Assembly (NCBI GenBank): GCA_020073145.1 | Contig: JAIQFS010000018.1 | Location: 1-64,000 of the forward strand | Origin: Terriglobia bacterium | Lineage (GTDB): Bacteria; Acidobacteriota; Terriglobia; Bryobacterales; Bryobacteraceae | Reading direction: 5' to 3' | DNA length: 64,000 nt | In this document: positions 28,592-44,800 of the stretch, one piece after another | Position numbering within the stretch: position 1 is the stretch's first letter | How the letters are laid out: every line of letters begins with the position of its first letter | Made by a program: the position numbers and the translations under genes | The notes under the pieces: model-generated | Database searches by the model: none | Told to the model about the DNA's origin: nothing | What the model saw: only the letters and a program-made list of their open reading frames with translations

Positions 28592-29440
28592 ATGCCCTGC
28601 AACCCCGACGTGCTCAAGCAGGTTCCGCTGTTTGCTCTGCTGGACGACGAAGAAGCCGCCGTGCTCGCCGGCCAAGTCGAGCTCAAGACGTTCGCGCCGC
28701 GCCAGCGCATCTACAAAATGGGCGATGCCTCCAGCCGCGCCTACATTCTCGTTTCCGGGGCAGTGCGCGTCACCACCGTCGACGAAGACCAGCAGGAAAT
28801 CGTGGTCGATCAGCCGGGGCCTGGCGAGTTCTTCGGATTTGCTTCCCTGCTCGACCAGACCCCGCACCAGACCGGCGCCCTGGCCGTGGAAGAGACCGAG
28901 TGCATCGAGGTCGACCGCCACGATATCTCCGTCCTGCTCGAACGCAAGCCCATGGCGGGAATGGATATGCTGGCTGTGCTCGGCCGCCAGTTTCATGCCT
29001 CGCAGCAATTGGTCCGCTTGCGCTCAGCACGCAATCCGAACGAGGTCATCGAATCGGAGACCACCACCGGCGAACGCGTCGCCGACGCCGTGGCGCGGTT
29101 TGGCGGATCCTGGGCATTCATCATTACGTTTGGAGTCGTGCTGATGGTGTACACCTGGCTGAACGTAGCGTTGGGGCGGTCCGCCTGGGATCCCTACCCG
29201 TTCATCCTGCTGAACCTCTTTCTCTCCATGCTGGCCGCCATCCAGGCCCCGGTGATTATGATGAGCCAAAACCGCCAGGACGCCAAGGACCGGCTGCGCG
29301 GCGAATTGGATTACCAGGTCAATCGTCGGGCCGAGTCCGAGATCCAAGGTCTGGCGCGCAAGTTAAACCTGCTGGGGGACAAACTGGGCGACATCGAAGA
29401 CCTTCTGCGGCCCAAACTGCCGGCTGGTGGACAACGCTAA
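28592..29440 (+). CDS. Cyclic-nucleotide-binding domain fused to DUF1003 membrane domain
   Basis: A 282-residue protein preceded by GAGGTGA. Residues ~8-125 form a cNMP-binding beta-roll (VPLFALLDDEEAAVLAG, RIYKMGDASSRAYILVSG and PGEFFGFASLLD). From ~150 comes the DUF1003 module: GERVADAVARFGGSWAFIIT, two membrane segments with WDPYPFILLNLFLSMLAAIQAP between them, MMSQNRQDAKDRLR, and a C-terminal coil (EIQGLARKLNLLGDKLGDIE). The sensory domain is cytoplasmic. It may switch an ion or small-solute path or a membrane complex, but no function is established for DUF1003. Confidence 0.82.
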   Translation: MPCNPDVLKQVPLFALLDDEEAAVLAGQVELKTFAPRQRIYKMGDASSRAYILVSGAVRVTTVDEDQQEIVVDQPGPGEFFGFASLLDQTPHQTGALAVEETECIEVDRHDISVLLERKPMAGMDMLAVLGRQFHASQQLVRLRSARNPNEVIESETTTGERVADAVARFGGSWAFIITFGVVLMVYTWLNVALGRSAWDPYPFILLNLFLSMLAAIQAPVIMMSQNRQDAKDRLRGELDYQVNRRAESEIQGLARKLNLLGDKLGDIEDLLRPKLPAGGQR

Positions 29441-29796: not shown

Positions 29797-30096
29797 ATGT
29801 CGACGCAGATTCAACCAGATACGGGCGAGAGGGACCCAGGCAAGCTGGCCGGACTCCGGGCCAGAACCGATCGTGATCTGGCCGCGCTCCTCCACCGGAT
29901 GCTGGACCGCGGTTTTGCATTGGCCAGTCAAGCCGAATACCCTGATGCCGAGGCCGTTTACGCCCGGATTGCTCGTCTGCTGCCCTTGGCCAGCAGTGTG
30001 GAAACTCCGGAATTCACGACTCTGCGGCCGCGCCTCCACGACCTGCGGGCATACCTGGATGAGGTGACTTTGGCCGGCGCCTGTCTCGCCAGCTAG
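29797..30096 (+). CDS. Small hypothetical helical protein
   Basis: A 99-residue protein with AGAGAGAAGC upstream. It is mostly helical (LAALLHRMLDRGFALASQAEYPDAEAVYARIARLLPL), with a repeat-like helix pair reminiscent of a single TPR-type hairpin. No family is recognised. Its end overlaps the convergent phosphatase gene by four bases. Confidence 0.5.
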   Translation: MSTQIQPDTGERDPGKLAGLRARTDRDLAALLHRMLDRGFALASQAEYPDAEAVYARIARLLPLASSVETPEFTTLRPRLHDLRAYLDEVTLAGACLAS

Positions 30097-30902
30097 CGCG
30101 AGGCCAGTGCCGCGCCTGCGTTCCGCCCGGAGGCCTCTGACCGCTGGGAGAAGAAGGAAAACCAGCTCTTCTTCCGGCCGCGCGACCGCACCCGCGTCAA
30201 CGGGATTCCATCCAACGCAGACTGCGGATTGTCGATGAACAGGCGGCGCGCCATATCGCCCCCATAGTGTTCTTCCACGTATTGCCAGGCCGGCTTCAGA
30301 TCCGTGGTCCGATGTTTAAGGTCATGGGCGTCGCTGGCCAGGAAGTGCACCAGGCGGCGCTCCATCAAAGTATGGCTGAATTCCTTGGCGTGGGTACCGA
30401 ACAAGCCGAGTAGCGATTGCGCCGTCACCTGCAGACAGCATCCCTGCTCCACCCACGCTTCCAGGTCTTCGATTTTCTTCTGGAGCAGCCGGTTGCGTTC
30501 GGGATGCGTCACGATAGGACAGATCCCGGCGTTGCGCATCGCGGTAAAGATCTCGCCGGTGGTTTTGGGGATGAAGCCATCGGAGAATTCCACCAGCAAA
30601 TAGCCTCGATGGTTGATTGAGTATTTGCCCGGCGCGCGCAGGGCGTCGTCGATGTTTTCGGGCGTGAGGTGAAAATCGCAGCCGTAATGGATGCGAACCA
30701 CGTCGCCCGCGGCTTCCTGCAATTCGGCGATCCGGCGCTCGACATCGGCCGGGTCGAAGGCGAACTGCATATTGGCATGAGGCGTTGCGACGATGTCGGT
30801 CGTGCCGAAGGCCGCCGCCATCCGGAGCATGGCGATCGATTCCTCCATCGCTGAAGAACCATCGTCCAGGCCGGGCAAAATGTGGCTATGAATATCGATC
30901 AT
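30093..30902 (-). CDS. CpsB/CapC-type PHP-domain tyrosine phosphatase
   Basis: A 269-residue metal-dependent phosphatase. IDIHSHILPGLDDGS provides the first metal-binding histidines, TPHANMQFAFD and YGCDFHLTPEN the next, and PIVTHPERN and LASDAHDLKHR the last, all typical of CpsB/YwqE. These enzymes dephosphorylate the tyrosine cluster of the bacterial tyrosine kinase that controls polysaccharide chain length. The kinase at 37701-39926 is the obvious partner. It is the last gene of a minus-strand operon and abuts the J-domain gene. A basic tail (SRGRKKSWFSFFSQR) follows the enzyme domain. Confidence 0.88.
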   Translation of the reverse strand: MIDIHSHILPGLDDGSSAMEESIAMLRMAAAFGTTDIVATPHANMQFAFDPADVERRIAELQEAAGDVVRIHYGCDFHLTPENIDDALRAPGKYSINHRGYLLVEFSDGFIPKTTGEIFTAMRNAGICPIVTHPERNRLLQKKIEDLEAWVEQGCCLQVTAQSLLGLFGTHAKEFSHTLMERRLVHFLASDAHDLKHRTTDLKPAWQYVEEHYGGDMARRLFIDNPQSALDGIPLTRVRSRGRKKSWFSFFSQRSEASGRNAGAALASR

Positions 30903-32002
30903 CAGGGCTCCCGTTGACGCACGAGTTGGGCCGTACCGGATGCAAGGTTCAGGTCGGCGCTGAGTTGGCTGGCGATCCAGCTCACTTCGAGCCGATCGCG
31001 CGAAATGAGCCGCAAAGTAACCTTGCCGCGAGACTCGCCCGGACCCGTCCAGGCAAGTTGGGCGACGGGAATTTTGCCGGCGCCTTCGAACCGAAAGGCC
31101 ACTTCCGGCGAGATCGCTTGGTCCGTAATCCGATACAGCGCGCGGTAGCGGCCGCGAACCGTACCCGCTCCTTCGGCAAGCCGGAGCTCGATGTATTGGG
31201 GGAGATACGTGCCTTTCGCGGCCGTGGGATGGGGCAGCGGCACGTAATACCAGTTGCCCGCAAACTGGGAAGGCGCGGGGCCGGTACGCTCGCTCATCGC
31301 CGGTTCCATACGCGCTAGCGGCGTCACCGGATTCACGTCTGGCTCTGCGAATTGCAGCGCGGCTGCCGGTGGTTCGGGAATGGAGGGCTCCCGGGACTGG
31401 GGCCGCGCCCGCACAGCCAGTTCCTCCACCATTCGCAGATTCTCGGCGCGAAGAGATTGCAGGTCCCGCTGGGAAGCATTAAACCGCGCCAGCAGACTCT
31501 CCTCGTCCGGCCCGGCGGCGGCCAACGGCCCGGCTGCCGCCACGGCCGCGCGAGCGCTGCCGTGTGCCGTGGAGGTTGAATTCTGTCCGGTGTCCAGCGC
31601 CGCGGCGGGCAGGACTTCTCGAAAACCACCGCCGTAATACAGAAGCGCCGCGAAAAATGCGATCACAACGGCCACGGGCGGAAGCCAGGCACATAAGCCG
31701 ATGGCCCATGGGCGCACCCAGCGTCGCTCGACCGGCGCCGGAACCACGGTGCGCTCCGGCGGACGCACCGAACGGACCGCGGGAGGCCCCTGCAGCTGGA
31801 CGTTGTATCGACGCCGCTCCTCGGGATTGCAGAGCAGGCCGAGGATCCCGTTCAGCCGCTTCATCTGCAACTCGGCCAGATGGTTCATCGCGGCATCCGT
31901 AAACTGATCGGGATGCAATAACCGCGCCAAGGTCTTATAGGCGTGCCGGATTTCCTCGGCGGACGCCCCCGGCGAAACCCCCAACTCTTCGTAATAATTC
32001 AT
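30902..32002 (-). CDS. Membrane-anchored J-domain protein
   Basis: A 366-residue protein starting at 32002 (TGATG junction with the ligase gene); the longer frame upstream lies in that gene. Residues 1-67 are a J domain with intact HPD (residues 30-32: LLHPDQF), so it should stimulate an Hsp70/DnaK ATPase. One membrane segment (~99-124, GLCAWLPPVAVVIAFFAALLYYGG) follows, then a coil (ESLLARFNASQRDLQSLRAE) and a C-terminal beta domain (~245-366: FAGNWYYVPLPHPTAAKGTY, VRGRYRALYRITDQ). Topology puts the J domain in the cytoplasm and the tail outside. It may assist assembly of the polysaccharide export complex. Confidence 0.75.
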   Translation of the reverse strand: MNYYEELGVSPGASAEEIRHAYKTLARLLHPDQFTDAAMNHLAELQMKRLNGILGLLCNPEERRRYNVQLQGPPAVRSVRPPERTVVPAPVERRWVRPWAIGLCAWLPPVAVVIAFFAALLYYGGGFREVLPAAALDTGQNSTSTAHGSARAAVAAAGPLAAAGPDEESLLARFNASQRDLQSLRAENLRMVEELAVRARPQSREPSIPEPPAAALQFAEPDVNPVTPLARMEPAMSERTGPAPSQFAGNWYYVPLPHPTAAKGTYLPQYIELRLAEGAGTVRGRYRALYRITDQAISPEVAFRFEGAGKIPVAQLAWTGPGESRGKVTLRLISRDRLEVSWIASQLSADLNLASGTAQLVRQREP

Positions 32003-33213
32003 CAGGACCCGCTGTCCGGCTTGGGGATGACGGCGATCCGTTTGACGACCTGGGCCGCCGCCAACGCGCCTGCCATGGCAAAAAACCAGCCCGCCAGCGC
32101 CGGCCGCTGCTGCATCGGATAATCCACAAGGCTGTGTAAGAGCAGCGATACCAACCCAACTCCCCACAACGAGGTCCACGCCATTCGCGCCAGCAGCAGA
32201 GCGAAGACCGCCATGGCGGCGAGCAGCGGCAGTCCGCCTTCGACGCCCCATTGGGCCCAATCGTTGTGCGCCTGATTGGCATACAGGCCGTCATCGTACA
32301 AGGCGAACGCGGGATAGGCCGTGGCCCAGGTGCCCAGACCGAAGCCCATCACGGGACGTTCCTGAACCATCTGCACCGACGACCGCAGCATGTCGCGCCG
32401 CACCCCATACGGATCTGCCAGCTGAAACCGCTGCCAGACGACGCCCCATCCCACAACCGTGATGAACACGGCCGAAAGCATGATGCCGCTTCCGAGCGCG
32501 AGGGCGGCCGTCCGCCCCGGAATCAGGCCCCGCACCGAGGCCAGCAGTGGGATCACCAGAACTTCCAGCAGAACCAGCAGAGTGCCCGTCCGCGATGCCG
32601 AGGCGACCACCGAAGCCACCATCACCCCCGCCATCGCCCAATACCCAAACGGCTTCTTGTGGGTGACGCCCCGGTACAAGGCCAGCGGCAAAATCGTCTC
32701 GATAAAAGCCGCATACTGATTCTGGTAAATGAACGGCCCCATCACAAAGTCGGAGTAGCCGCTGGGAAACAGCCAGAAGATCCGCCCCTCCGACGTGAAC
32801 ATCTGGACCGTAGACAGGATGCTCACGGCCACGCCGAAATACAGAAGGCAATCCAGGAACCGCTGCCGGCGCCGCGGTTCCCGCAGAATCTGCAGGGCCA
32901 GGAAGAAACTGGCCAGATTCACAGTCCAGTTCAATACCGAATTCCAGGTCTCCGCCCGGTAGATCGTGCGGCCCGCCGCGAGTTGCGCCAACCCCCAGAT
33001 TGGGATGAGCGCGAGTGGGATCAGCAGCGCGCTCCAAGCCACGCGCGTCGGCCGCACCGCCATCCAGACTCCAAATGCCGCGCACGCCCCCAAAGCTGCC
33101 GCCTGGTACAGGGCCAGCGCCCATCGGTCCGCGACCCAGAGTGTCAGGATCCCGTATGCCAATAGGGCCGCCAATCCCATCGCCCCGTCCAGAACCCGTT
33201 CGTTTCTCTTCAT
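32002..33213 (-). CDS. O-antigen ligase/polymerase-like membrane protein
   Basis: A 403-residue protein with about ten hydrophobic segments. The large periplasmic loop contains QMVQERPVMGFGLGTWATAYPAF followed by NQAHNDWAQWGVEGGL, the Wzy_C/WaaL pattern with the conserved His (AHNDW). Such proteins ligate a polymer to an acceptor or polymerise repeat units. A second protein of this class lies at 43319, so this one may be a ligase and the other the polymerase, or they may serve different products. It overlaps the upstream gene by four bases. Confidence 0.8.
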   Translation of the reverse strand: MKRNERVLDGAMGLAALLAYGILTLWVADRWALALYQAAALGACAAFGVWMAVRPTRVAWSALLIPLALIPIWGLAQLAAGRTIYRAETWNSVLNWTVNLASFFLALQILREPRRRQRFLDCLLYFGVAVSILSTVQMFTSEGRIFWLFPSGYSDFVMGPFIYQNQYAAFIETILPLALYRGVTHKKPFGYWAMAGVMVASVVASASRTGTLLVLLEVLVIPLLASVRGLIPGRTAALALGSGIMLSAVFITVVGWGVVWQRFQLADPYGVRRDMLRSSVQMVQERPVMGFGLGTWATAYPAFALYDDGLYANQAHNDWAQWGVEGGLPLLAAMAVFALLLARMAWTSLWGVGLVSLLLHSLVDYPMQQRPALAGWFFAMAGALAAAQVVKRIAVIPKPDSGS

Positions 33214-34436
33214 GGCAGCAACTCCATCCCGACGTTCCGCAGCCAGGCGGTGCCTTCAATTCGCACCGTCCCCGGTTGCCGCCGGTAGATCAGCGTCACC
33301 GCCGTGGCCTGCACCCCTTGTGGTACCGCAAAGGCCAGACCTCCTTGAGTCCAGGAATCGCTCGAAAGGTTCAAGGGCGGAGTCAGAATCTCCGCGCCAG
33401 TGGCACCGTCCCTCACCATCCACTGCAAGCCGGTTTCCGGCTCAATACCCTCGGTCCGGTACTCGAAGCGAAGGGCGTAGCGCTTGCCGGACACCGCCGG
33501 AACCAACTGGTAAACCACGGTGCAATTCTCCGGCTGGTTTCCAGAAAAATCGAACCTGAGCGAAGGAGGCGCGTCGTTGTACACGGCCGCCACTCCCTTC
33601 ACCTCGGGTAGGCGCCAGTCAAAACCGGAGTTCAAGGGCGGTCCGGTGAACGCTCCGTTGGTCAGTATCGGTCCGCGGCTCGCGTCCAGAGGACTGTAGT
33701 GCACTACCTTGCGCAAGCACAGGGCGTTCCACGCGGAGAGCGCGGCTTGCCACCGGCGTTGATCCAACATGCGGTCGGCGTAATTCAGCAACAGGTCTCG
33801 ATCCTGGTTGGAAGCCTGCCCCTCCAGTTTGCCGGCCACCCCCAGGGCCGCGTCGGACCGGTTTTCGCGCAGCAGGTATGCCAGGTAATCGCGCAGCACA
33901 TTGGCGCGGTCGGGAATGGCGCGTTCCAGAATCACATCCGCATCCGGCTTCATTTTCCAGCAAAGGTCGAACAGAAGTCCGCGGTCGCCGTAGGACCACT
34001 CTAGGGCGCTCTTCGCCCAAGGCCAGAAGTGCTCCGGATCGTTTCTGCGGTAATAGTAGTTGGCAAGCGTCCATCTCGGCTCGTATTGCAGGCTCTGCTT
34101 GGCGCCTCGGAGCAGGCGTTGTTCGGCTTGAACAAAGTTGCCGTCCGTTTCCGCTTGGAGGCCCGCTCGGATCCAGACCTCCGCTTCGTACGGGTCCGCC
34201 TCGGAGGCGCGTTCAATTCCTAAACCGCCCGTTTCGCCCCGCGCCTGTTCGAGGTCCGCCCAATGCAGCCAATAGCCGGCGTTGTCCGGAGCCATCCGCA
34301 GGCCCTCCCGGACTTGCGCCTCGGAGTCGCTGTGCGCCAGCCGGTCGGCCCAGGCCAGCCGGATCGCCCCATAGGTCGCCCAGCCCATCCCCGCGGCCAA
34401 AACTCCCCCGATGATCCTTCTCAAAAGCGAATTCAC
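33210..34436 (-). CDS. Membrane-anchored TPR-like protein with C-terminal carbohydrate-binding-like domain
   Basis: A 408-residue protein with an N-terminal membrane segment (IIGGVLAAGMGWATYGAIRLAW). Residues ~35-230 are helical repeats of TPR character (NAGYWLHWADLEQARGE, AEVWIRAGLQAETDGNFVQAEQ, ADRMLDQRRWQAALSAWNAL). The C-terminal ~170 residues form a jelly-roll-like beta domain (NGAFTGPPLNSGFDWRL ... SSDSWTQGGLAFAVP) resembling carbohydrate-binding modules. It is the first gene of the ligase/J-domain/phosphatase operon and is probably a periplasmic scaffold. No named family is recognised. Confidence 0.6.
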   Translation of the reverse strand: MNSLLRRIIGGVLAAGMGWATYGAIRLAWADRLAHSDSEAQVREGLRMAPDNAGYWLHWADLEQARGETGGLGIERASEADPYEAEVWIRAGLQAETDGNFVQAEQRLLRGAKQSLQYEPRWTLANYYYRRNDPEHFWPWAKSALEWSYGDRGLLFDLCWKMKPDADVILERAIPDRANVLRDYLAYLLRENRSDAALGVAGKLEGQASNQDRDLLLNYADRMLDQRRWQAALSAWNALCLRKVVHYSPLDASRGPILTNGAFTGPPLNSGFDWRLPEVKGVAAVYNDAPPSLRFDFSGNQPENCTVVYQLVPAVSGKRYALRFEYRTEGIEPETGLQWMVRDGATGAEILTPPLNLSSDSWTQGGLAFAVPQGVQATAVTLIYRRQPGTVRIEGTAWLRNVGMELLP

Positions 34437-34645: not shown

Positions 34646-35593
34646 ATGCAGCTTTCCACGCGCGCTCTCGTCGCATTGATTTTGGTTGGCAGCGTGACTT
34701 CCTTGATGGCCTCCAGCGCCGCTATCGGTTTCGTAGCCGCCAACGGCAGTTTCCAGGTGAACGCCCAGCAAGCCCGAGGCAACGCTACCCTGTTTGACGG
34801 CAGCGTGATCGAAACCACCAAGGCGCCTTCCCAGCTACGCCTGGAAAACGGCGTCCAGCTCCGCCTGGCGACCGATTCCCGCGCCACCGTCTACCAAGGG
34901 CGCGTGGTTCTGGAAAAGGGATCGGGACAGCTCGAGTCGTCCTCTCCCTTCCCCGTCGAGTCCCGCACTCTCCGCGTCTTCTCCACCGGCCCGAACACCG
35001 TGGCGCGGGTCCAGCTCGATGGCCAAAAACGAGTCCTGGTTGCCGCGTTGAAAGGCTCCGTCCGCGTCACCAATAGCTCCGGCATCGTGCTGGCGAACCT
35101 CCCCAGCGGTCTGTCCATGGCGTTCGAACCGCAGGTCGGCGCCTCTGCCCCCGCCCGGGTATCCGGCTGCCTGTTCCAAAAAGGCGGCAAGGACTTTGTC
35201 TATGACGGCACCACCAAGGTCGCTTTGGAGCTGACCGGCACCGGCCTCGACAAGCAGGTCGGCAAGAACGTGGAAGTCACCGGAATCCAGAATCCCGCCA
35301 CCCAAGCGATTGCCGTGACCGGCTTGAAACCGGTGTCGGGCGGAAATTGCGCCAAATTCGCGAAAATGGTTGAAAAGTCCGGAGTGGAAGCCGCCGCCGC
35401 CGCGACGGGCGCCGCTGGGACGGTCGCCGCCGCCGGCGCGGGCGCCGCTGCGGGTGCTGCAGCCGGCGCCGGCGTTGCCGCCACCGCCACCGTTATTGGC
35501 GGCGTGGCCGCTGCCGCCACTGTGGGTGGACTGGCCGCCGCGGGCGGTTTCTCGGGCCCGTCCCAAAACACCAATCCTCCAACCAGCCGGTAA
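34646..35593 (+). CDS. Exported FecR-like protein with Ala/Gly-rich C-terminus
   Basis: A 315-residue protein; the start at 34646 has GGAGAA nearby and opens a signal peptide (MQLSTRALVALILVGSVTSLMASS). Residues ~28-165 resemble a FecR-type beta domain (GNATLFDGSVIETTKAPSQL, LENGVQLRLATDSRATVY and VAALKGSVRVTNSSGIVLANL). A second domain has KVALELTGTGLDKQVGKNVE, similar to DUF5666-like folds. Residues ~245-305 are almost purely Ala/Gly with some Val, a glycine-zipper-like helix that may span the outer membrane or drive assembly. It is a single gene with its own promoter and terminator, placed directly before the exopolysaccharide operon. Confidence 0.65.
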   Translation: MQLSTRALVALILVGSVTSLMASSAAIGFVAANGSFQVNAQQARGNATLFDGSVIETTKAPSQLRLENGVQLRLATDSRATVYQGRVVLEKGSGQLESSSPFPVESRTLRVFSTGPNTVARVQLDGQKRVLVAALKGSVRVTNSSGIVLANLPSGLSMAFEPQVGASAPARVSGCLFQKGGKDFVYDGTTKVALELTGTGLDKQVGKNVEVTGIQNPATQAIAVTGLKPVSGGNCAKFAKMVEKSGVEAAAAATGAAGTVAAAGAGAAAGAAAGAGVAATATVIGGVAAAATVGGLAAAGGFSGPSQNTNPPTSR

Positions 35594-35887: not shown

Positions 35888-36430
35888 ATGCTGACTGGTC
35901 CGGATCAACCCGTGTGGCGCGCGCTGAAAGTGAAGTCTCGTCACGAAAAGCTTGTGGCCCAGAGCCTGCGCGGGCGCGGCCTGGAAGAGTTCCTCCCGTT
36001 GCACTCCTCGAAACGTACCTGGTCGGACCGCTCGAAAGTCATCGAGATGCCTCTGTTCCCCGGATATGTCTTTTGCCGAATGACGGGAAAGCACCGGCTG
36101 TTGGCCACATCCACGCCCGGGGTCAGTTCCATCGTCGGTTTCGGCGGAGTCGACGCGGCTCTGCAAGAAGACGAAATTCAAACCGTGCGCCAGATGCTGG
36201 CGTCCGGTGTGCCTCTGGAGCCATGGGACTACGCCCGGCCCGGGCACATCGTGGAGGTCCAAGCCGGGCCGCTGGCGGGGATGCGCGGTGAGGTCGTCCG
36301 GGAGAAAGGGCTCTGGCGTCTGATTGTGAACGTGGACCTGCTCCAGCGGTCGGTGGCCGCGGAACTGGGACGCGAGATGGTCCAGGTGATTCGCGCTCCG
36401 CAGGAAGCCTTCGGCGCGGCCGTGGCCTGA
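35888..36430 (+). CDS. NusG/RfaH/UpxY-like transcription antitermination protein
   Basis: A 180-residue specialised NusG paralogue. The N-terminal NGN domain has WRALKVKSRHEKLVAQSLRG, FLPLHSSKRTWSDRSKVIE and PLFPGYVFCRM, the surface that binds the RNA polymerase clamp. The C-terminal KOW domain (~115-165) contains PGHIVEVQAGPLAGMRGEVV. Such proteins travel with RNA polymerase to read long polysaccharide operons through internal terminators. As the first gene of a ~14-kb operon it probably acts on its own transcript. AAAAAGGAG precedes the start. Confidence 0.9.
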   Translation: MLTGPDQPVWRALKVKSRHEKLVAQSLRGRGLEEFLPLHSSKRTWSDRSKVIEMPLFPGYVFCRMTGKHRLLATSTPGVSSIVGFGGVDAALQEDEIQTVRQMLASGVPLEPWDYARPGHIVEVQAGPLAGMRGEVVREKGLWRLIVNVDLLQRSVAAELGREMVQVIRAPQEAFGAAVA

Positions 36431-36447
36431 CCGGGGATGGAGTTTTG

Positions 36448-36726
36448 ATGTCCATGTCCAACAACAGGAATCGAATGGTGGTCTTCCGCCTGACGCAGCA
36501 AGAATACGACACCTTGAAGGGCGTCTGCTCCGAGCGGGGTGGCCGCAACCTTTCCGACTTTACGCGCTCCGAGCTGATGAATTTTCTGGGGTCCGAATCT
36601 CTGGGCGGACTCGTGGAGAGGCGCTTTACCGACGTCCGACAAAGGCTCGGGGATTTGCAGGACGCGGTCAGCAAACTGACGATTTTAGTGTGTAACGCCC
36701 GTACCCCGGGCGAGGAGACCGAATAA
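36448..36726 (+). CDS. Small ribbon-helix-helix/MobC-like protein
   Basis: A 92-residue protein beginning at ATG 36448, with GGAG upstream. RMVVFRLTQQEYDTLKGVC followed by GGRNLSDFTRSELMNFLG fits the strand-helix-helix pattern of MobC-like and other ribbon-helix-helix DNA-binding proteins. The rest is a coil (RFTDVRQRLGDLQDAVSKLT). It lies between the NusG-like gene and the exporter gene, with its stop touching the next ATG, so it may be a regulator of this operon. No relaxase or plasmid genes are present. Confidence 0.55.
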   Translation: MSMSNNRNRMVVFRLTQQEYDTLKGVCSERGGRNLSDFTRSELMNFLGSESLGGLVERRFTDVRQRLGDLQDAVSKLTILVCNARTPGEETE

Positions 36727-37677
36727 ATGAAGTTCGCAATCGTAATCTTGATGACTGCCGCGGCGTGGAGCCAGACGGCGAGGAATGCCGGGACATCGGC
36801 CGATGTCCGCTCGACCAGCTTGCCGGCACAGAAAATCGGCCCCAACGACCTCATCTCCCTCTACGTCTATAACGCCCCGGAATTATCGGGCACCATCCGG
36901 GTCGGGGAAGAGGGTTACATCCGCATGCCCATGTTGAAGCAAAGGATCAAAGTGGACGGCCTGATGCCGGCTGAGATCGAAGTCGCGATTGCGGCGGCTC
37001 TCCAGCAAGAGCAGATTCTGGTCGACCCTTACGTGACCGTCGGGATCGCGGAGTACCACAGCCGGCCTATCAGCATCATGGGCGCGGTTCGCAACCCCAT
37101 CACTTTCCAGGCCGATACCCCCGTCACCCTGCTCGACGCCCTGGCGCGCGCCGGAGGACTGGATGCCGAAGTCGGTCCGGAAATCCTGGTCAGCCGCCAA
37201 CAGGACGGCGGAGACGGAACCCTGACCACCCTGGTGCAGCGCATTCCGGTGAAGTCCTTGATCGACGCAGCCGACCCTGAAATGAACCTGATGCTGACCG
37301 GCGGCGAGGAGATCCGGGTTCCCACCGCCGGCAAGATCTTCGTGGTCGGAAACGTCAAAACGCCCGGCGCGTTTCCCGTGCATGATGCCGCCGAGAGCAC
37401 CGTGTTGCAGGCCCTGGCGCAAGCCGGAGGGCTGGTGCAATTCGCCGGCAAACAGGCTTTCATTATCCGTCGCGAGGCGAGCGGGGCAAAGAGCGAGATT
37501 CCCGTGGAACTCGGCAAAATCATGGATCGCAAGGCCCCGGACGCCCCGCTGCTCGCCGGAGACATCCTCTACGTTCCGGACGCCAAAGGACGGCGGGCGG
37601 CGATGGCCGCGATTGAAAAAGCTTTGATCTACGGCAGTGGCGCGTCTTCGGCATTGATCTACGCCGGCATGCGTTAG
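36727..37677 (+). CDS. Wza-like polysaccharide export protein (SLBB)
   Basis: A 316-residue exported protein with a signal peptide (MKFAIVILMTAAAWS). Residues ~35-115 are the Poly_export domain (IGPNDLISLYVYNAPELSGTI and VDPYVTVGIAEYHSRPISIMG). Two SLBB domains follow (MGAVRNPITFQADTPVTLLDAL and VVGNVKTPGAFPVHDAAEST). No lipobox Cys is seen, unlike E. coli Wza. It should form the outer-membrane or periplasmic part of the export channel, working with the Wzc-like kinase encoded next. Confidence 0.9.
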   Translation: MKFAIVILMTAAAWSQTARNAGTSADVRSTSLPAQKIGPNDLISLYVYNAPELSGTIRVGEEGYIRMPMLKQRIKVDGLMPAEIEVAIAAALQQEQILVDPYVTVGIAEYHSRPISIMGAVRNPITFQADTPVTLLDALARAGGLDAEVGPEILVSRQQDGGDGTLTTLVQRIPVKSLIDAADPEMNLMLTGGEEIRVPTAGKIFVVGNVKTPGAFPVHDAAESTVLQALAQAGGLVQFAGKQAFIIRREASGAKSEIPVELGKIMDRKAPDAPLLAGDILYVPDAKGRRAAMAAIEKALIYGSGASSALIYAGMR

Positions 37678-37700: not shown

Positions 37701-39926
37701 ATGAACGACAAAAGCTTCCCTCGCTCTCTCCCGGCCCCTGCCGACGACATGGGGGGACGGAATATGCCCGCGCCGTCCGAGGCGTACTGGGGGGCGCCGA
37801 ACGCCTTCGACCCCCAGGCCGAGGAGCCGCCCGTCCCCATCTCGCAGTACATGTGGGTTCTCAAGCGGCATCGCTGGAAGATCGCTTCCTTCACCGTGGC
37901 TTGCATGTTGGCCGCGGTGGTGATCTCCAAGCGCCTCACCCCGATCTACGAATCTACCGCGACCGTGGACATCGACCGCCAGATGCCGACCGGCATCATC
38001 GGAGACGCGGCCATGCAGATGTCCCTGAACGACGCCGACGAATTCCTGGCCACCCAGATCAAGCTGATTCAGTCTGACTCGGTGCTGCGGCCCGTGGCGC
38101 AGGAACTTCACCTGGCGGACCAGGCGGGCCAATCCGCAGCCCGCATGCCGCAGGGAGTCACCGCGGCTGACGCTCCCGTGGCTTTGAAGAGCCTCAAAGT
38201 GACGCGCCCGTCGAACACCTACCTGCTCCAGCTGAGCTATCGTTCGACCGATGCCAGGCTGGCCGCTGAGGTGGCCAACGCCGTGGCCCGCTCCTATCTG
38301 CAGCACACCTATGAAATCCGATACCGCTCCTCCGCCAGCCTCTCCGCCTTCATGGAAAAGCAACTGGAAGAGTTGAAGGCTAAGATGGAGCGCTCCAGCC
38401 AGGCTTTGGTGGCCTTCGAAAAAGAACTGAACGTCATCAATCCTGAGGAAAAGACCAGCATCTTGTCCTCGCGGCTGCTGCAACTCAATACCGAGTACAC
38501 CAACGCGCAAGGCGAGCGCGTCCGCAAGGAAGCCGCCTACAAGTCGGTCAAAGGCGGAAGCATCGAAGCCGCCCAAACCTCCACTCAGGGCGAATCCCTG
38601 AAGAAACTGTTGGACCGCCTGGACGAAGTGCAGCAGCAGTTCGCCGACGTGAAGGTCCAGTACGGCGTCAATCACCCGGAATACCGCAAGGCCGCGGCTC
38701 AGCTCGCCGAGATCCAGCGCCAGGTCCAGGCCGCCGGGGCCAATATCGTCCAGCGCGTTCAGGTGGAATACGAGGAAGCGTTGAACCGGGAGGCCACTCT
38801 CGAGAAGACCGTGGCGGAAACCAAAGACGAATTCGACAACTTGAACGCCCGGTCTTTCGAATACCAGTCGCTCAAGCGGGAAGCCGACGCCGACAAGAAG
38901 CTGTATGAGGAACTGGTCACCAAGATCAAGGAAGCCGGGATCAACGCGGGCTTTCAGAACAGCGCCATCCGCATCGCCGACCTGGCGCGGCCGGCGGTCC
39001 GGCCGGTCTTCCCCAACACGATGTTGAACGTGATGTTGTCGGCGTTCTTCGCTCTGCTGCTCTCGATTGGGGGAGCCTTCGTCGCCGACGCGCTCAACAA
39101 CACCGTGCGCGATCCCGAACAGATCTTGCGCATGAACACCGAAGTGGTGGCCAGTCTTCCGGCGATCCGGGGCTGGCGCAACCGGGCCCAGGCGCTGACC
39201 GCCGGCGGCTCCAATGTCGCGGTGATTCCGGCCGACACCGCCGGCACTACCTTCAGCAGCTATGAAGAGGCCATCCGCACGCTCCGCAACTCGATCCTGC
39301 TCACCGATTTCGACCGCCGGGTCCGCACCATGATGGTGGGAAGCCCCTCGCCTTCGGAAGGCAAGTCCACCGTCGCCTCTCACCTGGCCCTGGCGCACGC
39401 GCAGCAAGGCCGCAAGACGCTCATCATCGACGCGGATTTGCGGCGCCCCAGCCTGCACCGCCGTTTTGACATCACCGCTCCCACCGGCTTGACCGACGTC
39501 CTCACCACCGGCATCGATTGGCACGACGTGCTGGTCCCGCATGCCTCCGTTCCCGATCTCCACATCCTGCCTGCCGGCCCCCCATCGCGCCGCGTGGCGG
39601 ACTTGCTGGGCGTCGGCCTGCCGCGAATTCTGGAAGAGGCCTCCGCGGAATACAACCTGGTCATCCTGGATTCCCCGCCCCTGCTGGGATTCCCGGAGCC
39701 GCTGGAACTGGCCTGCCTGGTCGACGGAGTCCTGTTGGTGGCTCTGGCCGGCAGCACCAACCGCAAAGCTCTGCGCACCGCCGTCACTACTTTGAACCGG
39801 CTCCGCGCCAACCTGTTGGGCGTCGCCTTGAACGAAGTGAAGGCGGATGGCGAATCCGGCTACTACTACCACTATTACAGCGCCAAGTATTACCGGCATT
39901 ACGAAACCAGCGCCAGCAACTTCTGA
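37701..39926 (+). CDS. Wzc-like polysaccharide co-polymerase with tyrosine kinase domain
   Basis: A 741-residue inner-membrane protein. An N-terminal Wzz domain lies between a membrane segment (WKIASFTVACMLAAVVISK, ~56-74) and a second one (NTMLNVMLSAFFALLLSIGG, ~440), with a long periplasmic coil of about 300 residues. The cytoplasmic BY-kinase domain has Walker A (SPSPSEGKSTVASHLALA, ~548), A' (TLIIDADLRRPSLHRRF) and B (LVILDSPPLLG). The last ~20 residues hold eight tyrosines (YYYHYYSAKYYRHYE), the autophosphorylation cluster. It controls chain length; the PHP phosphatase at 30093 should reverse its phosphorylation. Confidence 0.93.
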   Translation: MNDKSFPRSLPAPADDMGGRNMPAPSEAYWGAPNAFDPQAEEPPVPISQYMWVLKRHRWKIASFTVACMLAAVVISKRLTPIYESTATVDIDRQMPTGIIGDAAMQMSLNDADEFLATQIKLIQSDSVLRPVAQELHLADQAGQSAARMPQGVTAADAPVALKSLKVTRPSNTYLLQLSYRSTDARLAAEVANAVARSYLQHTYEIRYRSSASLSAFMEKQLEELKAKMERSSQALVAFEKELNVINPEEKTSILSSRLLQLNTEYTNAQGERVRKEAAYKSVKGGSIEAAQTSTQGESLKKLLDRLDEVQQQFADVKVQYGVNHPEYRKAAAQLAEIQRQVQAAGANIVQRVQVEYEEALNREATLEKTVAETKDEFDNLNARSFEYQSLKREADADKKLYEELVTKIKEAGINAGFQNSAIRIADLARPAVRPVFPNTMLNVMLSAFFALLLSIGGAFVADALNNTVRDPEQILRMNTEVVASLPAIRGWRNRAQALTAGGSNVAVIPADTAGTTFSSYEEAIRTLRNSILLTDFDRRVRTMMVGSPSPSEGKSTVASHLALAHAQQGRKTLIIDADLRRPSLHRRFDITAPTGLTDVLTTGIDWHDVLVPHASVPDLHILPAGPPSRRVADLLGVGLPRILEEASAEYNLVILDSPPLLGFPEPLELACLVDGVLLVALAGSTNRKALRTAVTTLNRLRANLLGVALNEVKADGESGYYYHYYSAKYYRHYETSASNF

Positions 39927-39951
39927 GGTCAGAACTCCTGGCGGCTCACTC

Positions 39952-41493
39952 ATGACCCCGGCTCAACCCAGTCTCGCGCGCAACACACTCCGCGGCATCG
40001 CGGTGTCGTACGGATCGGCCGTCATCACGGGCGCCATGCAGATCGCTACTACCGCGGTGGTAGCGCGAATGGTGGCGCCCCGTGACTTCGGCATCCTGGC
40101 GATGGCGCAGCTGGGCGTTCGGTTTGCCGGGTATTTCTCGCAGTTCGGCGTCGGATCCGCGCTCGTCCAGAAACGGGACCTGAGCGAATCGGATACCGCC
40201 GCTGCGCACCTGATGGCCATCGCGGCGGGAGTTCTGTTTACAGCGGCGGGCCTGCTGCTGGCTCCGCTGGGCGGCGCTGTCTTTCACTCCAACGATGTCG
40301 TCTGGGTGATCCGCGCGCTCGCCTTCACCTTCCTGCTCACTAGCTTCACCGTAGCGCCCCTGAGTCTGCTGCGGCGCAACCTGCGTTTCGACGCCATCTC
40401 GGCGATCGACATCGCGTCCTATGTTCTTGGATATGCCGCCCCGTGCCTGACTCTCGTATGGCTCGGCCACGGCTTGTGGGGACTGGTGGCCGGCAACCTC
40501 GGCGCGGTCCTCGTGCAGTGGATCCTTCTCCAATCGGTGCAGCCGGTGGCTTGGAAATGGGTCCGCGAGTGGGAAATCTACCGCGGCCTCCTCAGCTACG
40601 GCTCAAGAATTTCCATCACCGGTTTTCTGGAATACATCACGAGCAACATCGACACCTTCGTGGTGGGCCGCTATCTGGGCCCCAAACCGCTGGGCCTCTA
40701 CACCCGGGCTTACAATCTCGCCGCTGTTCCGATGCATATGATGAGCTCCGCGGCGGCCCGCGTGCTCTTCCCCGTGTTCTCGCGGGTTCAGCACGACTCA
40801 GTCAAGCTCGCTCGGACTTACAAAGACACCCTCACTCTGCTCTTCGTGCTGACCTGCCCCCTGGGCTTCGCGCTGGTCCCTTCGGCCCCTCACATTGTGC
40901 GCCTGTTGCTCGGTCCGGCCTGGGCCGAAGCCGCCCTCCCGCTGGCCGTCTTCGGCATCCTGGCCCCGTTCGATATGGCCGTGGCGCTCCCGGGCATCGT
41001 TCTCGACGCCACCGGCACCCTGAACAAGAAGCTGTACGTGCGGCTCGCGACCTTGATGGCCGCCGGTACCGTCATCTATCTCCATCGCGAGTCCGGCATC
41101 GTGACCATCGCGTGGCTCATGCTCGGGTCCTGCGTCCTCACCTTCTTCGGTTATCACTTCCTGGTGGTCCGGCAGTTGGGGATGTCCTGGTCCTCCGCCT
41201 TGTCGCCCGTTCTCTTCGGCGCCTGTACCGGCGCTATCCCGCTGGTGACGATCCATTTCGCGATCGCCTTCGCCAACCTGGAACTTCTCCCTGCCCTGGC
41301 CCTCGAAGGTTCGATCCTGATTCTTTCGTATGTCCTGATCCTGGTCTTTTCGCCCTTCCCGATGGTGAATGCCGCTCTGTCGCGCGTGTTAACGGCGCTG
41401 CTCGGTGAAACCCGGCAGGTTCCGGAAAACCTGCGCTCCCGCTGCCTGGCCCTTCAACTTCTGGCGACGGCACGCGCGGAAGGGGGTTGCTGA
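39952..41493 (+). CDS. Wzx-type flippase (polysaccharide transport membrane protein)
   Basis: A 513-residue integral membrane protein with 12-14 hydrophobic segments. The start at 39952 follows the kinase stop; the frame open upstream lies inside the kinase gene. ATTAVVARMVAPRDFGILAM and RVLFPVFSRVQHD are typical of the MOP/PST superfamily used in Wzx-like export. It flips the lipid-linked repeat unit across the inner membrane. Residues after ~495 are soluble. Confidence 0.85.
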   Translation: MTPAQPSLARNTLRGIAVSYGSAVITGAMQIATTAVVARMVAPRDFGILAMAQLGVRFAGYFSQFGVGSALVQKRDLSESDTAAAHLMAIAAGVLFTAAGLLLAPLGGAVFHSNDVVWVIRALAFTFLLTSFTVAPLSLLRRNLRFDAISAIDIASYVLGYAAPCLTLVWLGHGLWGLVAGNLGAVLVQWILLQSVQPVAWKWVREWEIYRGLLSYGSRISITGFLEYITSNIDTFVVGRYLGPKPLGLYTRAYNLAAVPMHMMSSAAARVLFPVFSRVQHDSVKLARTYKDTLTLLFVLTCPLGFALVPSAPHIVRLLLGPAWAEAALPLAVFGILAPFDMAVALPGIVLDATGTLNKKLYVRLATLMAAGTVIYLHRESGIVTIAWLMLGSCVLTFFGYHFLVVRQLGMSWSSALSPVLFGACTGAIPLVTIHFAIAFANLELLPALALEGSILILSYVLILVFSPFPMVNAALSRVLTALLGETRQVPENLRSRCLALQLLATARAEGGC

Positions 41494-43318: not shown

Positions 43319-44800
43319 ATGACAATGCCGATCACAGCTTCCACGAAAAGGATCACCCCGGTCGGGCTCGGTCGCAAAGCCGCTTTGCCAAGACGGAGAG
43401 GGTTCATCGCCGACCAGGGCCTGTGGTTGATTGTCGCGGCGTTCTTGTTGTGCACCGCTCTCGGGATCGGCCTCAACACGAAGTTGTACGTTGGAGACAA
43501 TCTGTCCAGCGCACGAGCCGCGAGCGCGAACGCTCAAGAAGGAGGCCGCATCTTCAACGAGGCGGCCATCGCGGTTTGTCTGATCGGCTTACTGATGGCG
43601 GCCAGCCGGACGGAATCCTTCCGCCGTTCGTTTCGCGTCTGGAAGAATCCGGTCGTTTGGGCCTTGGCTTACCAGGCGATCATGGCGTGGCACTATTGGT
43701 CTAACGATAATGCGTGGGACATGGCCAGGCTCTGCGGAGTTTGGCTGTTGCTGATGGTGGCGATGGCCTCCAGCGCCCCCATGACTCTGGATCGGTACGT
43801 GCCGAAAATGCTGCTTCTTTTCCGGCTCCTGTTGTGGATCTCGTTGATTGTCGGCATTGTGCTGCCGGATAACGCATGGATGCATGACTACATTTCGAGT
43901 TTCATTCCAGGACTCAACGACCGCTTTGCCGGCATCGCCGGCCACCCCAATAGTATGGGTGCCGTCGTGGGTATCGCGGTATTGATGGAGCTGGATCAGT
44001 TCTTCGGGGACGGCTCGAAGCGATGGTTGAGTCTCGTGCATCTCCTGCTTGGCAGCGCTCTGCTTCTTCTGACGCAGTCCAAGATGGCCCTTTTGGCTTG
44101 TGCGGCGTGCGCTGTCTGGTTTCTATTGAGCCGGAGGAACCGCCTCCTTCGCGGACCGGTCCGCGTGGTGGTAGTCGCCACCACGGTTGTCGCTGGTGCT
44201 TTGGTCGCTTGGGCGTCTTTGGCGGACTGGGTGGCTTCTAACCAATACAATTTGGACGATCTCACGGGCCGTATTGGTGTTTGGCAGTATCTTTGGGATG
44301 TCGCACGCGAGCGGCCGTGGTTTGGCTACGGAGACGCTCTGTGGTCCCAGCTCTATTTGAGTGAGTCGTTTCAGTACAAGTGGGCGGCCGGTAATGCTCA
44401 TAACCAACTTCTGAATTCCTTTCTGATGACCGGCTTGGTGGGTGTGGGATGTCTCGTCGCCTTCGTGACTGCCCTGTTCCGGCAACGGCGCCGGATCGAC
44501 CCGAACTATCGTGCCCTCTTTACCGCCTGCCTGGCCTTCTTGCTCATTCGCTCCATTGCGGAGGCCGGCTTCGAACCTGGCAGTCTGGGGGTTGCGGGAC
44601 TTCTGCAAACCGTTCTCATCGGCTTCTGTTTCTGCCTCCGAAAGCCGGAACGGGCCGCCCTCCCGGGCTGCGCGGCTCGCCCCGGCCTGACCCAGATGGC
44701 CGGGACTCAAGAACGAGCTTTCCGGGCTGCCGAATACCGGATGCGGCGGCGCCTGCTGGCATTCCCCCGGCGAAACCCGATCCCCGGTAAAAGCCTATGA
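43319..44800 (+). CDS. Wzy-like polysaccharide polymerase/O-antigen ligase family protein
   Basis: A 493-residue membrane protein with 10-12 hydrophobic segments. FAGIAGHPNSMGAVVGIAVL is the first conserved region (with an HPN motif), and the periplasmic loop has YLWDVARERPWFGYGDALW and WAAGNAHNQLLNSFLMTGL, the Wzy_C pattern with the conserved His. Position inside the operon favours the repeat-unit polymerase. The C-terminal ~50 residues are Arg-rich and soluble. Confidence 0.8.
   Translation: MTMPITASTKRITPVGLGRKAALPRRRGFIADQGLWLIVAAFLLCTALGIGLNTKLYVGDNLSSARAASANAQEGGRIFNEAAIAVCLIGLLMAASRTESFRRSFRVWKNPVVWALAYQAIMAWHYWSNDNAWDMARLCGVWLLLMVAMASSAPMTLDRYVPKMLLLFRLLLWISLIVGIVLPDNAWMHDYISSFIPGLNDRFAGIAGHPNSMGAVVGIAVLMELDQFFGDGSKRWLSLVHLLLGSALLLLTQSKMALLACAACAVWFLLSRRNRLLRGPVRVVVVATTVVAGALVAWASLADWVASNQYNLDDLTGRIGVWQYLWDVARERPWFGYGDALWSQLYLSESFQYKWAAGNAHNQLLNSFLMTGLVGVGCLVAFVTALFRQRRRIDPNYRALFTACLAFLLIRSIAEAGFEPGSLGVAGLLQTVLIGFCFCLRKPERAALPGCAARPGLTQMAGTQERAFRAAEYRMRRRLLAFPRRNPIPGKSL

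Follow-up and report, generated by a model that had tools for sequence, protein, structure and literature searches.

Why should a J-domain protein (JDP) be encoded among the genes of an exopolysaccharide (EPS) pathway? The question arises from a minus-strand gene in a 64,000-nucleotide stretch of a Terriglobia bacterium contig (Bryobacterales; Bryobacteraceae), the whole of which is referred to here as the window. The gene lies in a Wzx/Wzy-type EPS locus with the following features:

30093-30902, minus strand: CpsB/CapC-type phosphatase gene (Pfam CpsB_CapC, E=1.9e-54)
30902-32002, minus strand: gene for a 366-aa protein with a J-domain, a single transmembrane helix, a linker and an avidin-like barrel
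30905-31267, minus strand: within it, the C-terminal eight-stranded barrel, calycin/avidin-like in fold and predicted periplasmic (structure models)
31634-31696, minus strand: within it, the transmembrane helix, residues ~103-123 (hydropathy and AlphaFold)
31802-31999, minus strand: within it, the J-domain, residues 2-67, with HPD at residues 30-32 (Pfam DnaJ)
32002-33213, minus strand: gene for a Wzy_C (O-antigen ligase/polymerase-like) membrane protein (Pfam Wzy_C, E=1.7e-13)
33210-34436, minus strand: TPR-like conserved partner gene, family A4 (weak PgaA-model match, E=0.00068)
34646-35593, plus strand: FecR-like/DUF5818-like conserved divergent partner, family A5 (sub-threshold Pfam FecR, E=0.25, and DUF5818, E=0.01)
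35888-36430, plus strand: NusG/RfaH-like antiterminator, first of the divergent EPS genes (Pfam NusG, E=5.9e-16)
36727-37677, plus strand: Wza-type export protein (Pfam Poly_export, SLBB)
37701-39926, plus strand: Wzc-type BY-kinase with a Tyr-rich C-terminal tail (Pfam Wzz, GNVR, CbiA/AAA_31; the tail was read directly)
39847-41493, plus strand: Wzx-type flippase (Pfam Polysacc_synt_3, E=4.1e-66)
43319-44800, plus strand: second Wzy_C protein (Pfam Wzy_C, E=1e-18)

Further plus-strand genes encode glycosyltransferases, a polysaccharide deacetylase, a WecG-type transferase, an initiating sugar transferase (Bac_transf) and a GDP-mannose dehydratase-like enzyme, and the second Wzy_C protein is likely the polymerase of this main operon. 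The TPR-like and FecR-like partners match no Pfam family above its cut-off; 'TPR' is a label given here to a product without a Pfam match, and the FecR-like protein carries, by inspection, a signal-like stretch at its N-terminus. A small protein with a sub-threshold NikA-like match (36445-36726, plus strand) is encoded between the NusG-like and Wza genes, and its relatives adjoin Wza at two other loci (L039 and L193). A cyclic-nucleotide-binding domain fused to DUF1003 (28592-29440, plus strand) also adjoins the EPS genes.

The minus-strand genes follow the order TPR-like, Wzy_C, JDP and CpsB/CapC phosphatase, so that the JDP gene does sit between an O-antigen ligase-like gene and a CpsB-type phosphatase gene, as an earlier sequence-only reading of this DNA had placed it. 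The TPR-like and Wzy_C frames overlap by four bases, and the Wzy_C/JDP and JDP/CpsB junctions are one-base stop/start overlaps. These overlapping junctions suggest that the four genes share one transcript and that their translation is coupled.

The JDP gene is an exact open frame of 366 aa, and not a chance one, because full-length relatives exist in other genera. The protein consists of a J-domain with an intact HPD motif, one helix and a C-terminal domain predicted to form a barrel, an architecture that agrees with the sequence-only reading of a J-domain linked by one helix to a periplasmic beta domain. The J-domain matches Pfam DnaJ with E=4.7e-13 (49.5-53.3 bits against a cut-off of 27.8), and the HPD motif is unchanged in all rows of a 22-row alignment. 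AlphaFold, run with ten sequences, models this domain at a pLDDT of ~90-95, and a Foldseek search with the model retrieved solved J-domains, including the one in the DnaK complex 5nro (E=0.002). Residues 103-121 form the sole hydrophobic stretch that stands out (mean Kyte-Doolittle 2.38; runner-up 0.77), and AlphaFold places a helix at 107-123 with low to middling confidence. A further helix at 168-195 is modeled with low confidence, as is the linker, whose length differs between members. The C-terminus is modeled as all-beta, with eight strands spanning residues 249-362 and a pLDDT of 72-94 per ten-residue block.

The HPD-bearing J-domain is also all that the protein shares with DnaJ, since no other domain of it reaches Pfam and the best stretches of the NCBIfam DnaJ models cover the J-domain alone. 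These are the features of a class C J-protein, and the family is best described, from its sequences, as a real and conserved variant of the membrane-anchored class C J-proteins that is partly tied to EPS loci, with a predicted role in EPS. Identity as DnaJ or CbpA was rejected because only the J-domain matches. Identity as DjlA was likewise rejected on domain order: according to PMC11709261, DjlA begins with a short periplasmic segment, followed by a helix, a TerB-like domain and, at its C-terminus, the J-domain, whereas the JDP has an N-terminal J-domain, a helix and a barrel predicted beyond the membrane, with no TerB match in Pfam.

When the last 121 residues were folded alone, the barrel again had eight strands, with a mean pLDDT of 87.7 and a pTM of 0.81. 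Its best structural match in VIA-align is a designed beta barrel (6czj; Z 11.6 over 99 residues at 2.5 A), followed by a domain of quinohemoprotein amine dehydrogenase (1jmx; Z 11.0). Streptavidins and avidins rank below the designed barrels and 1jmx, with Z of 8.3-9.6 over ~95 residues at ~3 A and 10-17% identity; an engineered streptavidin monomer reaches Z 9.6 (96 residues, 2.9 A, 14% identity) and core streptavidin Z 9.1. The Foldseek matches, designed barrels and lipocalins, all fall short of E<0.001. An eight-stranded barrel is also the form of avidin, streptavidin and other calycins, and the fold is predicted to be calycin/avidin-like. Unlike avidins, the barrel has no avidin match in Pfam, nor a match to any Pfam family above cut-off. 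The sequences of solved structures held no relative at E<=1, and a PHROGs search gave J-domain or weak matches only.

In a search of the window's genome together with 60 related ones, 61 in total, full-length JDP relatives occur in other genera, and four congeners hold J-domain matches alone or nothing. Twelve named records comprise eight from Bryobacterales/Bryobacteraceae, one from Acidobacteriaceae and three from other phyla that match the J-domain alone. Within Bryobacteraceae, the barrel is present at E<=1e-4 in 110 of 237 genomes, of which 92 are counted as JDP type (barrel E<=5.5e-19, plus one weaker match, G557, with a J-domain in its locus); the remaining 18 are weaker matches that are not so counted. 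Across 396 genomes of the phylum, the barrel profile found two matches, both from the window's own family, and the whole-protein profile matched J-domains widely. With few candidates scored per genome, that search gave no full-length JDP match beyond the window's genome among the matches listed. One member lies in another family of the same order (G039).

The locus survey covered 94 JDP loci: those of the 92 Bryobacteraceae genomes, a second copy in one of them and the locus from the other family. Left out were the named-record loci (L036-L044), eight of which (all except L040) sit on contigs equal in length to contigs of the whole-genome set, and two loci whose barrel is lost at a contig end (L063 and L064), in both of which a FecR-like gene adjoins the J-part. 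Loci L203-L208 and barrel matches weaker than 1e-12 were handled separately. A J-domain is recognizable in frame at 86 of the 94 loci, and four of the other eight reach a contig end. Among the 85 complete J-domains, 84 retain HPD and one, at L201, has HPE; this last protein (L201:8704-9519, minus strand) also has a short linker, and its J-domain is possibly decaying. A hydrophobic helix (19-residue mean of at least 1.2) is found in 84/85, and in 74/85 the Lys/Arg count before the helix equals or exceeds that after it, a charge bias of the N-in kind. One helix with this bias would fit a DjlA-like single-pass protein with its J-domain in the cytoplasm.

The linkage to EPS genes, whose lack of conservation the sequence-only reading had named as refuting its proposal, recurs beyond the window's genome, but it is not shared by the whole family. 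One or more EPS markers are present within 9 kb at 33/94 JDP loci, against 1/40 other J-domain loci (Fisher 2.1e-5, kinship ignored), a contrast tilted somewhat towards linkage because the marker profiles started from the window's genes and were expanded with JDP-locus hits before being run on the controls, and because the window is counted among the 94. Strict markers (Wzy_C, CpsB, Wza, Wzc and NusG) give 27/94 against 0/40 (Fisher 2.8e-5, kinship again ignored); the sole marked control locus is a weak TPR match. The controls, picked from the 61-genome search, were Bryobacteraceae loci of similar span subjected to the same marker count, near which diverged EPS genes may escape the profiles, and some contigs are short. 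If kinship is set aside, adjacency to EPS genes thus exceeds chance, and an accident of one genome was rejected as its explanation. The notion that all members are EPS-linked was rejected as well, since 61/94 loci have no EPS marker within 9 kb.

A quick tree built from 86 members requires six changes of the strict EPS label, compared with a mean of 21.8 when labels are shuffled, and the window's clade of nine is strictly EPS-linked throughout (SH-aLRT 96). Because the label clusters on the tree, the linked loci represent far fewer independent events than their number. EPS linkage passes down within clades and recurs in several arrangements; it is real but partial, non-random and not universal. 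At the unlinked loci, a convergent gene read as 6-phosphogluconolactonase is found at 15/61, and genes read as opcA and zwf at 13 each; opcA was matched by Pfam at L196 and L059 only. This neighborhood, seen beside the JDP gene at L059, L176, L180 and L196 for example, is probably synteny.

The unmarked loci, the clustering on the tree and the non-EPS neighborhood kept at 13-15 loci are all in keeping with a general envelope co-chaperone, DjlA-like in outline, that would position DnaK at the inner membrane for the quality control of membrane proteins, its own place among EPS genes reflecting regulatory convenience or inherited synteny. We nevertheless regard this as somewhat unlikely. The linkage recurs in differing gene orders, including one-base overlaps between the JDP and Wzy_C genes (in the window, L135 and L139) and TPR genes that directly abut the JDP gene (L141, L164 and L165). 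JDP genomes also nearly always carry the FecR-like and TPR genes, and some barrel proteins without a J-domain lie beside EPS-module genes as well; both points are taken up below.

Neighbors within 700 bases of the JDP gene were measured at 30 linked loci. The commonest is a divergent FecR-like gene upstream (16/30), followed by a same-strand TPR gene downstream (12/30), CpsB downstream (9/30, window included, and on the same strand in the window only), same-strand Wzy_C upstream (7/30, window included) and Wza upstream (3/30). The order NusG-Wza-JDP is seen at three loci (L192, L194 and L199). Wzc is missing from this 700-base neighborhood at all 30, and the specific link to the tyrosine kinase that the sequence-only reading had raised is not borne out by these neighbors. 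Control of the Wzc-type kinase/CpsB phosphatase cycle, for instance through remodeling of the Wzc oligomer by DnaK, would fit the nine loci with CpsB downstream, the presence of Wzc within 9 kb at 11/94 loci and the Tyr-rich tail of the window's own BY-kinase. Given that FecR-like and TPR neighbors are commoner and Wzc is absent from the immediate surroundings, we consider such control very unlikely. The JDP may act on Wzc directly, but Wzc is no better indicated than Wzy_C, the TPR protein or the FecR-like protein.

The partners that recur at linked loci are also found together away from the JDP gene. TPR genes are present in 161 and FecR-like genes in 155 of the 237 Bryobacteraceae genomes. 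With profiles for both built from JDP loci, the TPR gene is found in 88/92 JDP genomes against 73/145 without JDP, and the FecR-like gene in 87/92 against 68/145. Counted by genus, the corresponding figures are 42/42 against 24/34 for TPR and 42/42 against 17/34 for FecR-like. The JDP, TPR and FecR-like genes are all absent from the four congeners. Layout was sampled in 32 JDP genomes, comprising 31 unlinked genomes and G651, where a TPR match is the only marker near the JDP gene. In at least 24 of the 32, the FecR-like gene is paired divergently with the TPR gene, and in at least 18 Wzy_C lies within 3 kb of TPR on the same strand. Because the three occur together away from the JDP gene, FecR-like/TPR/Wzy_C looks like an independent module, within which the position of the JDP gene varies. 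In one genome (G524), the open frames carrying the TPR match and the Wzy_C match are of equal length (772 aa), perhaps a fusion.

The barrel, too, exists apart from this J-domain. Among the weaker barrel matches are longer J-proteins, of which three of five have a FecR-like gene in divergent orientation (L203, L205 and L206; not L211 or L222), and proteins in which the barrel accompanies a JAB-like domain, at L207, L208 and L210 (Pfam JAB E=9.7e-5, 4.8e-4, which is below cut-off, and 2.7e-6, respectively). In the last group the JAB/MPN-like domain is N-terminal and the barrel C-terminal (L207:4205-6028, plus strand; L208:3937-6006, plus strand; L210:5727-7718, minus strand); L207 has, by inspection, a hydrophobic stretch between the two. 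Other weaker matches look secreted on inspection. The barrel appears exchangeable between J-domain, JAB-like-domain and secreted forms.

Such forms would be expected if the JDP were a barrel-based periplasmic assembly or ligand-binding protein for EPS whose J-domain is a mere cytosolic handle, with no part for DnaK. The retention of HPD in 84/85 proteins, with HPE as the one exception, is hard to explain without Hsp70 contact, and we would be surprised if this account proved correct. EPS or module genes lie nearby at 4/17 barrel loci without a J-domain match, and 13/17 have no marker. As some of these loci lie beside module genes, they weakly suggest that the barrel is the EPS-side part and that the J-domain brings DnaK. 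The barrel proteins lacking a J-domain are found beside TPR and FecR-like genes at three loci (L213:5689-6861, L217:5513-6670 and L221:5184-6401, all minus strand) and beside NusG and Wzc at one (L200:9035-9529, minus strand).

The reading we prefer, at a probability of roughly 50%, is that the JDP is an inner-membrane, DnaK-recruiting class C co-chaperone whose periplasmic barrel binds an EPS partner or ligand, so that DnaK is placed at EPS proteins. The protein would span the inner membrane once, with the cytoplasmic J-domain recruiting and stimulating the host DnaK. The helix would serve as anchor, and the barrel as a periplasmic anchor or sensor for a ligand or partner in the EPS machinery, the likeliest candidates being the members of the FecR-like/TPR/Wzy_C module. 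DnaK would then sit at the cytosolic faces of EPS membrane proteins and assemble or remodel these putative clients where the barrel is engaged, with a possible effect on the polymer. A bolder form of this proposal, which we consider unlikely, has the barrel sense an EPS product or partner and switch the cytosolic work of DnaK, which would amount to outside-in chaperone signaling devoted to the assembly of polysaccharide. DnaK systems are known in the making of surface polysaccharides in some bacteria; a membrane-anchored co-chaperone adjoining Wzy_C, TPR and FecR-like genes in an EPS locus narrows the candidate clients to a few.

The sequence-only reading took chaperone control of polysaccharide assembly for a new idea, but three published systems precede it. 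In E. coli, overproduced DjlA acts with DnaK and GrpE to induce the Rcs relay and the colanic acid capsule, according to the available text of PMC11709261. The same text states that the J-domain and membrane helix were reported as needed in earlier work, that a MalF-anchored form also worked, and that deletion of DjlA had no significant phenotype except delayed mucoidy. DjlA resembles the JDP, as predicted here, in being a membrane-anchored class C protein with a single helix, a cytosolic J-domain and a co-chaperone role with DnaK, but it works through a phosphorelay, a difference from the JDP (PMC11709261, in the part available).

In Nostoc punctiforme, the DnaK1/DnaJ3 pair is needed for normal amounts of hormogonium polysaccharide (available text of PMC9239167). 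Unlike the JDP, this pair is tied to type IV pilus motors, and its description there nowhere uses the word 'transmembrane'; in their discussion the authors write that they have yet to identify its target protein (PMC9239167). In Myxococcus xanthus, EPS is regulated by the DnaK homologue StkA, which acts upstream of the Dif proteins; StkA is an Hsp70 and the JDP is a J-protein, and both are placed with EPS (PMC4319316, available text). DjlB and DjlC of E. coli are membrane J-proteins thought to bring Hsp70 to the plasma membrane, as is proposed for the JDP. They are, however, tail-anchored and linked to HscC, and the available text of PMC8215388 mentions no large periplasmic domain, unlike the JDP. 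A literature search, mostly of papers readable without subscription, found no protein with a J-domain, helix and avidin-like barrel and no J-proteins within EPS loci, although the prokaryotic J-protein survey by Barriot and colleagues (cited in PMC8215388) may list the architecture. The JDP architecture and its tie to the FecR-like/TPR/Wzy_C module look new.

The window's genome encodes one canonical DnaK, with dnaJ directly after it. Besides this DnaK, the genome contains two adjoining Hsp70-like matches, in frames of 622 and 897 aa (G000:C65:10985-13612).
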